From assembly GCA_023362775.1 (NCBI GenBank), contig JALMGJ010000004.1:50178298-50242297 (forward strand): a stretch of DNA of 64,000 bases, written 5' to 3'. Below the pieces are notes generated by a model that was not told the origin of the DNA, did not search any database, and was given only the letters and a program-made list of their open reading frames with translations. The position numbers were made by a program, and so were the translations under genes. Of this stretch, positions 18,801 to 27,800 are shown one piece after another (the first letter of the stretch is position 1; every line of letters begins with the position of its first letter). The DNA comes from Charina bottae (Eukaryota; Chordata; Lepidosauria; Squamata; Charinaidae).

Positions 18801-21800
18801 AAGATTTGGTAATAGTGTTTTTTTGTATTTGTTCCAAATTTTTAGCAAGGATTTTCTTATTATATGGTTATTAAATGCCTTATGTATTTTACTTTTATTA
18901 TACTACATGTAACCATGCCAACCATACCTATTGTCGTGTCCTTCTAAATTCAGTAATTTTTCATTTTCTAGTTTTATCCAATCTTTAATCCATATTAGGC
19001 CGCATGTTTCATAATATAATTTAAGGTCTGGCATTGCTAATCCCCCTCTATCTTTTGTGTCTTGTAAATATTTTAATTTTATTCTAGGTTTTTTCTTTTG
19101 CCATATAAATTTGGATATTTCTTTTTGCCATTTTATAAAAATTTGGTCTTTAATCGGGATTGTTTGGAACAAATACAAAAATCTTGGTAGTATATTCATT
19201 TTTATTGTAGCAATCCTCCCCAGTAATGATAGCTGTAAATTTGCCCATTTTTCAAGATCTTTTTTAATTTCTTTCCATAAATTTTCATAGTTATTTTTAT
19301 ACAAATCTAAATTGTTATCTGTTAATTGTATTCCTAAATATTTTAATTTTCTAACGTTTTGAAATCCTGTTATTTGTTCTAATTGACTTTTTTCTTCTTT
19401 TGTCATGTTTAAATTTATCATTTTGGTTTTCTGTATATTAATTTTAAATCCTGATAAATCGCCATATTCTTGTAATGTTAAAATTAATTTTTCTATTGTA
19501 TTTCTTGGGTTTTGTATTGTTATTACGAGATCATCTGTGAAAGCCTTTAATTTACTGTATGATTATCCTGTTTTACCTTGATCCCTTCTATATTTTGATC
19601 TTTCCTGATTTCTTCCAGTAATACTTCTAGAACCAATATGAATAATAATGGTGAAATGGGACAACCTTGTCTTGTGCCTTTTGTTATTTTACATTCCTGG
19701 GTTTCTTCTTCATTTACCATTATTCTTGCTTTTTGAATCTTGTATATTGCTCTTATTGCTTTTATAAATTTTTCCCCAAAATTTCTATTTTCTAGTACTT
19801 TAAACATAAATTCCCAATTAACGTTATCGAAAGCTTTCTCCGCATCTAGAAATAATAACATTATTGGTTTTTCATTATGAATGTTTGCGTATTCAATTAG
19901 ATTAATCACATGTCTTATATTTTCTTTTATTTGTCTGTTTGGTAAGAAACCATTTTGATCCTGATTAATAATTTTCTGTAATATTTTTTTAACCTTTCAG
20001 CAAGAATAATGGCAAATATTTTGTAATCATTGTTTAGTAAGGAGATTGGCCTATAATTCTTACATTCTGTTAAGTCTTGGTTTTCTTTTGGTATTAACAC
20101 AATATTTGCTTCTCTCCATGATAATGGTATGTCTGCACCCTGTAATATTGAATTGAATAGAATTTTTAATGGATTAATTAGATGTTCTTGAAATTTTTTA
20201 TAATATTCGGCTATGAAACCATCATTTCCTGGTGTTTTCCCTGTTTTCAGTCTTTTGATTGCATCTTTGATTTCTTGTGTTGTAATGTTATTATTTGTAA
20301 AATCTTTATCTTCTTCTGTTAATTTTCCTAGTTTACATTTTTCAATATATTCATCTATTTTATTTTTTGATATTTGTTGTTTTTGATATAGTCTGGTATA
20401 GTAATCAAAGAAAGCCTTTTTGATATCTTCATTATATATCAATTCTTTAGTCTTATCTCTAATTTTTGAAATGATTTTTTTTTCTTTTTCTTTCCTTAAT
20501 TTGTATGCCAGCCATTTTCCTGGTTTATTTGCCTGTTCAAAATTTCTTTGTTTGATAAATTTTAGTTTTCTATTCAATTCTTCTGTTAGTTCTATTTTGA
20601 TTTGAAGTTGCAATAATTTTATTTGGTTTCTTAATTCCTCTTTTTCTTTTTTCTTTCTATTGTTCTTTTGCAATTCTAATTCTCTTTTATCTGTTCCATT
20701 ATTGTTTCTATTTTTTTTTCTTGTTCTTTTTTTGATAATTATTAAGTGATAAATGTTATTTTGATGCTGTATATTCTTCCTGTTGAAAGTCAGAAGTCAC
20801 CTTTCTATGTAATCTTTAAAAATTCTTTTTTCTTGTGTTTCTCACTTTTTTAGTTTTCTTTTTTTCTTTTTGTAGTTTTTTGCTTTTTTGTAGTTTTTAT
20901 CTTTGCTTTAAGCTCAATAAAGCAAAGATAAAAACTACAAAAAAGCAAAAAACTACAAAAAGAAAAAAAGAAAAAAAGAAAACTAAAAAAGTGAGAAACA
21001 CAAGAAAAAAGAATTTTTAAAGATTACATTGAAAGGTGACTTTAAAAAAAAAGAAAGAAAAATGTTATTTTGAGCAAAGAAAGCAGAAATCATGGATTAG
21101 GTTTACAAAATATATCCTGATGGATCTGTTAAGGTTATTTGGTTAAAGCATTCTATGCAGAATTAAACGCATGGCATTTTCTTCCACTGTGTCTGGCCAG
21201 AGAGTGGAAAAATACAAGTGAAAACAATCTACATTGTTTTCCGCATTGTAAGTTTGGTTCTCAAAAACATCTGAGACGTAGATGGCAGGTGTTGAGATAT
21301 CTCTGTAGCTAGACATAATAAAAACCCGTAATCAGGATTGTTCTCAAAACAAAGAAAGGCCAATACACAACACTGCCATCGTGTGACGCTTTATAGTAAG
21401 TACAATTACCACCAAAAATGCTATGCTAAAAGAGATGCCCATGTTTGAACCAATCAGATGTGAGCTATGAACCATGGGTAGTCCTTTATACTTATGTTCT
21501 ACATACATATGTCTTCTTTTCTTTATGTAGACTGCTATCTGCATGTACTTGTATCTAAACTGTAACCATGCCTGGTCTTTGCACAGACCATGATGTTATT
21601 CTTTCCTCACTTCTGGTGATGGAACTCTGCTTATGCTTTGATTTTACCTTTTTGCAATAATGCACTATACATCCATTATTGCCTTATGCTATCAATAAAG
21701 ATATTGTTAGCCTTACAACACGTTGTTTGGATTACTTCAAGCCTGGAACCCCGCATAGTTAACCATCACCTAACAGGTTATGGGCCCAGAGAGAATTTTG

Positions 21801-24800: not shown

Positions 24801-27800
24801 AGATAAGGCTTTGTTAGAGCTAAAGTTTAAGAAGTCTGTTGCTGATCCTTGTGTGTATGTAAGAGGTTCTGGAAGTGATTACACAGTGTTGCTAACGTAT
24901 GTTGATGATTTTTGCCTAGCAACTGGTTCTTTGCACCTTGTACAAGAGTTTGCAACACAATTGAGACAGTATTTTCAATTGAAAGACCTAGGTGAGCTGA
25001 AATACTATCTAGGTGTTGAAGTCACTAGAGCTCAGAGTGGTGAGTTCTATCTGAGTCAGAAAAGAAAAATTGACCAATTGTTGAGTCAACTTGAAATGTC
25101 AAATGCAAAACCAACCAAAACACCAATGACTCTTGATTTCCCAAAGGGTGATGCATGTGAGGAATCTTGTCCTCAACCTGCATTGTATCACTCAGCTGTA
25201 GGAAGCTTGCTACATTTAACACAATGGACACGCCCTGACTTAGCTTACTCAGTTGGAGTGCTTAGTCGTAAGGTTGCCAAACCATCCATGCGGGATTGGA
25301 AAGGTTTAAAGAGGGTCCTACGCTATCTTAAAGGCACAGCTGATCTTTGTCTCAAAATATCAGCCACCAAGGCTGAAATGCCTGTAATTTATGCTGACAG
25401 CTCTTTTGCAGAAGAGAGAGACAGAAAGTCTGTGAGTGGTTTTGTTTGTTTGTTTGCAAATACACCCATTGCCTGGAGAGCAAGAAAACAAACATTAATT
25501 GCCGTTTCTACCTGCGAAGCCGAATTTGCGGCCCTCAGTGAGGCAATCAATGAAACATATTGGTTAAAACAATTGTTTACAGATTTATCTGTAAATATAA
25601 ATCCACCAATAACAATGTATGAAGATTCCCAATCCTGTCTATCTCTAGCTGCTTCGGAAAATGTCAATAATCGCACGAAATACATCCATGTAAAATACCA
25701 AAATGTAAGGCATGCAATTCAGGAAAAATTTATACAATTAGAGTATTGTCCATCTGAGCTAAATATCGCAGACGTTCTCACGAAAGCACTTTCTCCTACA
25801 AAGCATACAACCATGGTAACCAGATTGGGGTTGGAGCAAATGTGTCTGAAATAAAATCATTTGTGTCTCTGTGTGCTTTTGAAATAACAGTTTTTCCCCC
25901 ACAGCGTTTCAAAAAATCCATGCGGAAGGGGTGTTAAGGTTATTTGGTTAAAGCATTCTATGCAGAATTAAACGCATGGCATTTTCTTCCACTGTGTCTG
26001 GCCAGAGAGTGGAAAAATACAAGTGAAAACAATCTACATTGTTTTCCGCATTGTAAGTTTGGTTCTCAAAAACATCTGAGACGTAGATGGCAGGTGTTGA
26101 GATATCTCTGTAGCTAGACATAATAAAAACCCGTAATCAGGATTGTTCTCAAAACAAAGAAAGGCCAATACACAACACTGCCATTGTGTGACGCTTTATA
26201 GTAAGTACAATTACCACCAAAAATGCTATGCTAAAAGAGATGCCCATGTTTGAACCAATCAGATGTGAGCTATGAACCATGGGTAGTCCTTTATACTTAT
26301 GTTCTACATACATATGTCTTCTTTTCTTTATGTAGACTGCTATCTGCATGTACTTGTATCTAAACTGTAACCATGCCTGGTCTTTGCACAGACCATGATG
26401 TTATTCTTTCCTCACTTCTGGTGATGGAACTCTGCTTATGCTTTGATTTTACCTTTTTGCAATAATGCACTATACATCCATTATTGCCTTATGCTATCAA
26501 TAAAGATATTGTTAGCCTTACAACACGTTGTTTGGATTACTTCAAGCCTGGAACCCCGCATAGTTAACCATCACCTAACAGGATCATCTCATACCGACCC
26601 AAACCCATCTTGTCTGTGTATAACTGTACGTTGGTTGTTCACATCCAGTGACTTCCTGCTTACAAATGTTGTTGAAGAACTTTCAGTGTTTTTTCTGAGA
26701 ACAATGAGAATGAAGTTGATATCATCTGCCTATAGATGTCGTACAATTTCAAACTTCCACAAACCCTGTCCTCCTCAGCATTTTCTTTCATGTTTCATTG
26801 ATCATAGAGCTGTATACTGATTGTTTACACACTGAGACAAGCAAAAGCATCAAGTGCAGATAATAGAAATAGTTATAAAATTAAGATTTTTCCTTGAAAA
26901 CACAACATTGAAATTACACCTTTTAGAAAACAGTGGTTGATTTGAGTGATATTGTGGATAAATGATATGCTGTAATTAATGTAGAAATACAAAATAACCT
27001 TTCACATTTATTTTTACATTTTGAAAGAAGATCAAGTAAGAAGAGTAAAATATGGAAAGCATTTTGCTTATTGTCTATGTTATTTGTAAAGAATACTGAG
27101 AGACTGAACTTGCTGGTGAACATCTTCATTGTGAATTTACATTACACAGGAATTCTGCTTGTACATCTGTTTAAATTGTAGTGCAGTATGCAGGTATGCA
27201 CACAAATCATAGAATGTAGGGGTTGGAAAGGACCTTGGAGATTATCTATTAAAAATTCCTAGCCAGTGCAAGAATCTACTACTAAATATTCCTGATAGAT
27301 GGTCATCCATCGTTTCTTTAAACACCTCCAGAGGCAAGGAAGGCGTACCTCTGGAGGCATTGCTAGTACAGTTAGGATTTATTCCTGATTCTGATTAATA
27401 CCTACTTTGTTGTCATTTAAACTTATTGTTACGCGGGCTCTCTTCTGGAAGAACTTTGAACAATTTTGCCCATGTTCTTATACCCTCCAAGCCTGTGTTA
27501 CTGAAGAAAAATATATTTAGCTGAAGATCTTCAAGGAACTATAAACATGTCTACCTTCAGTCATGGATCCCTGAAAGTCAGAACCCTGATTATTGATTGG
27601 TATTGCAGATCCTTTGCACTAGTCACGTGAAGAGACACTTAGACATTGAATATGCTGTGGCAAGGCTTATGTGCATGTTCCTTTTCCCATCATAGACTCT
27701 AGACATGTTCCTTTTCCCATCATAGACTCATGTATGTGCTATGCAAAGGGTTATAAAGTTCATTCCTATACATAATAGACATTGGATGAATGTGTATAGG

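Follow-up and report, generated by a model that had tools for sequence, protein, structure and literature searches.

An intact, young Ty1/copia retrotransposon in a TBL1X intron of Charina bottae is very probably a recent member of a mobile, multi-copy family

Ty1/copia retrotransposons have been described from several lepidosaur genomes. In the corn snake, very young and mutagenic insertions of a Copia element of 5832 base pairs (bp) lie in OCA2 intron 11 (amelanistic) and in CLCN2 intron 5 (Stripe). According to the published accounts, the two insertions are one base apart, 85 copies are present in the assembly, splicing carries 397 bp with stop codons into the messages of OCA2 and CLCN2, and among the snakes searched it is reported only from Pantherophis and Pituophis (PMC4657000, PMC11948899). 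Published passages also name a Repbase Copia-6 of A. carolinensis (PMC4657000), give a Copia row beginning with 1962 in a table of polymorphic insertions in the green anole (PMC7561263), describe Mtanga-like Ty1/Copia as especially abundant in tuatara (PMC7116210), assign 0.67% to Ty1/Copia in Urosaurus (PMC10699878) and report Gypsy and Copia as the predominant long terminal repeat (LTR) expansion in sea snakes (PMC10709897). Outside vertebrates, Drosophila copia is described as priming with a half transfer RNA (half-tRNA), in a source that refers in turn to work on Ty5 and the anticodon stem-loop of initiator Met tRNA (PMC5371799). The present analysis concerns 64,000 nucleotides of Charina bottae (assembly GCA_023362775.1, contig JALMGJ010000004.1, positions 50,178,298 to 50,242,297, forward strand; this whole stretch is the window, and its numbering is used throughout), in which a Ty1/copia element lies within an intron of TBL1X.

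The element is a complete Ty1/copia LTR retrotransposon of 5454 bp, at 21127-26580 on the plus strand. As judged from sequence, it is very probably an autonomous, recent member of a multi-copy family that is currently, or was very recently, mobile in this genome. A previous sequence-only reading of the window had taken the element to be intact and very young; the open frame, the one LTR mismatch and the exact target duplication bear this out. Exact alignment of the LTRs, which that reading had compared by eye, confirmed equal lengths of 649 bp and a single mismatch at LTR position 254 (C at 21380 vs T at 26185, CpG/TpG); many differences were looked for and not found in this alignment, and the recent age stands. 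Each LTR starts with TGTTAAGG and ends with CCTAACA, and carries AATAAA at LTR position 568 (21694 and 26499) with another at LTR position 191. The duplication GGATC on both sides is exact, as had been reported, and the uninterrupted gag-pol frame of 1319 codons is likewise confirmed. Domains were called by Pfam search on overlapping pieces of gag-pol, and catalytic residues were read by eye against known motifs. The features of the element are as follows (E, expectation value).

21122..21126, unstranded: target-site duplication GGATC, left copy (identical to 26581-26585)
21127..21775, plus strand: 5′ LTR, 649 bp, TG...CA ends, AATAAA at 21694-21699 (one mismatch vs 3′ LTR)
21776..21789, plus strand: primer-binding site GGTTATGGGCCCAG (sequence read directly; putative match to the anticodon region of initiator Met tRNA)
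21895..25854, plus strand: gag-pol, one frame, 1319 codons and stop (ATG 21895 to TAA 25854)
21982..22467, plus strand: copia-type gag, Retrotran_gag_2 (E 8.9e-25)
22555..22605, plus strand: CCHC zinc knuckle (E 5.9e-4; 20.3 bits, just under the curated cut-off of 20.8)
22741..22749, plus strand: protease active-site motif D-S-A (read by eye; the Pol_BBD match starts here)
23107..23250, plus strand: GAG-pre-integrase zinc-binding domain, gag_pre-integrs (E 2.7e-5, just under the curated cut-off)
23293..23589, plus strand: integrase core, rve (E 2.1e-10)
23770..23976, plus strand: SH3-like domain (E 3.1e-21)
24406..25128, plus strand: Ty1/copia-type reverse transcriptase, RVT_2 (E 4.4e-73)
25390..25700, plus strand: RNase H region, approximate (D-E-D residues by eye)
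25924..25931, plus strand: polypurine tract GGAAGGGG (adjoins the 3′ LTR)
25932..26580, plus strand: 3′ LTR, 649 bp, AATAAA at 26499-26504 (LTR alignment)
26581..26585, unstranded: target-site duplication GGATC, right copy (identical to the left copy)

The Pfam domains occur in the order copia-type gag, zinc knuckle, Pol_BBD, gag_pre-integrs, rve, SH3 and RVT_2; no RNase H family was matched on the overlapping gag-pol pieces. The residues read by eye were H-H-C-C and D-D-E of integrase, YVDD of reverse transcriptase (RT) and D-E-D of RNase H. Together, the Pfam matches and these residues give a pol order of protease, integrase, RT and RNase H. LTRs, a gag-pol and a 5-bp duplication are, as is generally known, common to several groups of LTR elements, and by themselves would also suit endogenous retroviruses or Ty3/gypsy. 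Here, however, integrase precedes RT, and the gag and RT families matched (Retrotran_gag_2, RVT_2) are copia types. Moreover, the stop codon and the 3′ LTR are separated by only 77 bases, too few to hold an envelope gene, and none is present there. A retroviral or Ty3/gypsy identity is exceedingly improbable and was ruled out by domain order. The TG...CA ends of the LTRs and the 5-bp duplication are those of Ty1/copia, the identity that the sequence-only reading had given.

In line with established Ty1/copia biology, the LTR would drive a transcript ending at the LTR AATAAA, and the polyprotein would form a particle. Reverse transcription would begin from an initiator-Met half-tRNA and integrase would insert the copy with a 5-bp stagger. 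The present copy would then have landed in sense within the TBL1X intron.

The window's own assembly (1.804 gigabases, 278 contigs) was searched for siblings. Exact 30-base junctions of the 5′ LTR and the primer site numbered 89, exact 30-base 3′ junctions (14 bases before the LTR and the first 16 LTR bases) 221, and exact 16-base LTR starts 529; reversed-pattern controls gave 0 for each of the three counts. The near-identical copies that the earlier reading had proposed to look for in the same genome are thus many. Among the first 100 listed of the 529 LTR starts, 88 formed 45 same-strand pairs, two triples each being counted as two pairs, and 12 were unpaired; 40 of the 45 pairs were spaced 4779-4972 bp apart. 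An LTR similarity search gave 1624 first-look candidates, and the 40 that were scored were all listed at 99-100%. These 40 comprised 14 pairs and 12 unpaired LTRs. Eight of the 12 are solo LTRs, each flanked by a 5-bp duplication that matches (one sits in a simple repeat, where such a match can be chance), and the other four belong to elements. The family numbers a few hundred similar copies, and the window copy is an ordinary member of it; activity of this kind of element in lizards or snakes was already known. The possibility of a domesticated gene was rejected because the frame is common to many copies with LTRs and duplications.

Tandem arrangements were also observed. At C201:168351091-168356847 (L009, L010) the order is LTR-internal-LTR-internal, and one LTR has a polypurine tract before it and a primer site after it. 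At C249, 5′ junctions at 143380 and 148203 are 4.8 kb apart, and at C13:9728754-9738431 three LTR starts are spaced 4831 bp. A second form of the primer site, GGTTATGGTGGCCCAG, follows the 5′ LTR in five of the ten similarity-search elements fetched (L011, L019, L022, L024, L028); its two additional bases break the fit to initiator-Met tRNA.

For LTR divergence, every third of the 89 junctions (30) and 10 of the 13 other LTR pairs from the similarity search were taken together with the window element which, minus two duplicates, gave 39 elements. At least one LTR was aligned end to end in 37 and both in 26; the remaining 13 were dropped from the within-element count, an LTR being missing from the fetched stretch, truncated or partly aligned. 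Within the 26 elements the LTRs diverge by 0.15% at the median and by 0.78% at most, with 0-5 substitutions per pair. The single LTR difference of the window element is therefore the family norm, and uniqueness of the window copy was rejected. An exact 5-bp duplication flanks 23 of the 26. Of the other three, one is a tandem element, one shows a single-base mismatch and the third is the outlier C214:598701 (L073, L074, L109, L110). Between the 35 elements with a complete 5′ LTR, median divergence is 3.2% over 595 pairs. The outlier, which accounts for 34 of the 595 pairs, has an LTR 19.5-23.0% from the other elements; once these are set aside, the remaining 561 pairs have a median of 3.1%, a 95% quantile of 6.3% and a maximum of 9.0%. 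The outlier's own LTR pair, with 5 differences in 637, makes it the oldest; it has no matching duplication, and its first half is broken. Because the LTRs differ between elements yet are nearly identical within each, several distinct LTR sublineages are, on this comparison, all recent insertions in the same genome, and this is the point worth keeping.

The LTRs of an old element might seem identical through assembly error or gene conversion; the sequence comes from one assembly, and conversion between LTRs is possible. The exact duplication and the open frame argue against this, as do the 26 independently placed elements, whose within-pair divergence is equally low though the elements differ mutually. 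We regard such an origin as very unlikely. A recent insertion being preferred, K = 1/649 would put the age of the window element at ~0.16 million years with the rate of 4.71e-9 per site per year used in PMC10709897, or at ~3.7 million years with 2.1e-10, a value that PMC7561263 uses for anole simulations and states both per generation and per year. Since the error is large with one substitution, only 'young' is claimed.

Integrity was assessed in 20 other copies, all with both LTRs complete, with the coding region read as two pieces. The first piece is open in 13 copies, the second in 16 and both in 12. Four of the 20 change frame close to codon 486, where seven G follow one another (window 23350-23356, integrase region); this may be mutation or homopolymer read error. 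Pairwise ratios of nonsynonymous to synonymous divergence (dN/dS; computed as ratios of sums on open pieces alone, from 14 or 17 sequences with the window element among them) were 0.45 for gag, 0.26 for the protease-linker, 0.06 for integrase, 0.20 for the integrase-RT linker, 0.12 for RT and 0.19 for RNase H. Purifying selection has thus acted on the coding region in the lineages from which the copies descend.

Measured against the window element, the coding regions of the 20 copies mostly diverge by 0-2.5% per 200 bases. In the bin at 22000, the start of gag, five copies differ by 0.5%, thirteen by 3.5-5% and the last two by 8.2% and 10.5%; rows 18 and 19, two copies otherwise near the window element, stand at 3.5-4% in this bin. 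Divergence of the C214 element climbs from ~3-7% to 10-22% toward the 3′ end. Segment exchange between copies is a reasonable guess from these profiles. A broader model is offered tentatively, as a possibility that we think somewhat less than even. The family might form a swarm in which Ty1/copia sublineages, their LTRs mostly 1-7% apart (9% at most; the outlier at 20-23%), are all still transposing; copies would soon be lost by selection and LTR recombination, and the sublineages would exchange gag and 3′-end segments, so that the family stays diverse with few old copies.

Of 7977 proteins scored in a search with RT, 5625 reached E <= 1e-10. No vertebrate name was present among the 120 matches listed, which carried names of plants, algae, invertebrates or bacterial bins, or no name, and were 31-44% identical. 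In a second pol search (192 proteins) there was likewise no vertebrate name among the 120 matches listed, the best identity being 46%. A search of solved structures with the RT piece gave no match, and an RT tree, built without vertebrate references, gave no lineage placement. The gag search returned four proteins. The best of these, and the closest gag relative found in that search, is a Python bivittatus prediction (P0125) named olfactory receptor 14C36-like, 51% identical in gag over 251 amino acids; the others are 22-24% identical. Unlike the window element, P0125 carries only a gag fragment and zinc knuckle, at the C-terminal end of the receptor, and the join is probably a gene-prediction fusion. 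The Python match supports, but does not prove, a squamate lineage for the element.

These results also bear on a fresh burst from one recent founder, for example by horizontal arrival. The elements are young and mostly full length, as such a burst would leave them, and the protein searches listed no close pol relative. Yet the LTRs differ between elements by a median of 3.1% and up to 9.0%, with one element further still; dN/dS indicates selection over the lineage, and the python prediction carries a gag relative. A single-founder burst is thus quite unlikely, and a family of several recently inserted sublineages is preferred.

By description only, the window element resembles the corn snake Copia in being Ty1/copia, with near-identical copies, intronic insertions and probably recent activity, and differs in size (5454 bp vs 5832 bp). 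On the same footing, it can be likened to the Copia of the green anole, another Ty1/copia, from a lizard, and to the Mtanga-like Ty1/Copia of tuatara, abundant in that lepidosaur. Drosophila copia, again likened by description, would be similar in its primer site, which directly follows the LTR and, in the window element, putatively fits the anticodon region of initiator Met tRNA; it differs in host and size. The sequence-only reading had called Ty1/copia rare in vertebrates and this copy a notable case. For this host that is not supported: there are 221 exact 3′ junctions, the siblings measured are about as young, and 12 of 20 sampled are open in both pieces. Nor does 'rare in vertebrates' apply to these lizards, snakes and tuatara, because abundant or recently active Copia has been published there (PMC4657000, PMC11948899, PMC7561263, PMC7116210, PMC10699878, PMC10709897). 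The earlier reading is partly supported: the element is intact and young, not exceptional. What the family offers is a large set of datable vertebrate Ty1/copia insertions, young in the sample, with several sublineages and a high full-length share, in which turnover and host control become measurable.

Several observations weigh against an autonomous element of a recently mobile family. Eight of the 20 sibling copies have at least one piece that is broken or incomplete. The protease reads D-S-A vs the textbook D-[ST]-G with the catalytic Asp kept. The fit of the primer site GGTTATGGGCCCAG to the complement of the initiator Met tRNA anticodon region is presumptive. One dropped element has four differences in 426 bases (0.94%). 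Finally, the sampling (exact junctions, top-scoring LTRs, dropped elements) favours young, complete copies, and old copies may therefore be under-counted.

The exons of TBL1X were located by tblastn with the human TBL1X protein. The two that bracket the element are given below.

15759..15869, plus strand: TBL1X start-codon exon, ends approximate (tblastn; splice-like ends)
40866..41015, plus strand: next TBL1X coding exon found (100% over 50 amino acids)

More TBL1X exons follow on the plus strand up to 61150 (tblastn). The element lies in sense between the two exons listed, as the sequence-only reading had placed it. The term 'intron 1' used in that reading is probably only loosely correct: the acceptor-like AG that precedes the start-codon exon makes another exon further 5′ likely, and the host intron is taken as the one after the start-codon exon. 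The location parallels the corn snake colour mutations, in which, by the accounts cited at the outset, intronic Copia insertions altered messages. The insertion could change TBL1X messages if transcripts were polyadenylated in an LTR, which the sequence-only reading had suggested could truncate them, or if the element contributed extra exons through splicing. The sense orientation and the AATAAA in both LTRs favour this possibility, and the corn snake insert in OCA2 and CLCN2 is a precedent. However, the effect published in those accounts is exonisation and not LTR polyadenylation, the OCA2 element is in the opposite orientation, judging by the domain order given there, and many intronic insertions are generally known to be harmless. 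An effect on TBL1X is considered unlikely.

Close to the insertion site, a stretch of ~250 bp (20794-21042) matches its own reverse complement at 90.8% and ends ~85 bp before the site. Other mobile-element pieces lie round TBL1X, at 7164-7862, 12469-13596, 28885-29988 and 37217-37831; they comprise one GIY-YIG domain, two RVT_1 reverse transcriptases and one DDE_3 transposase.

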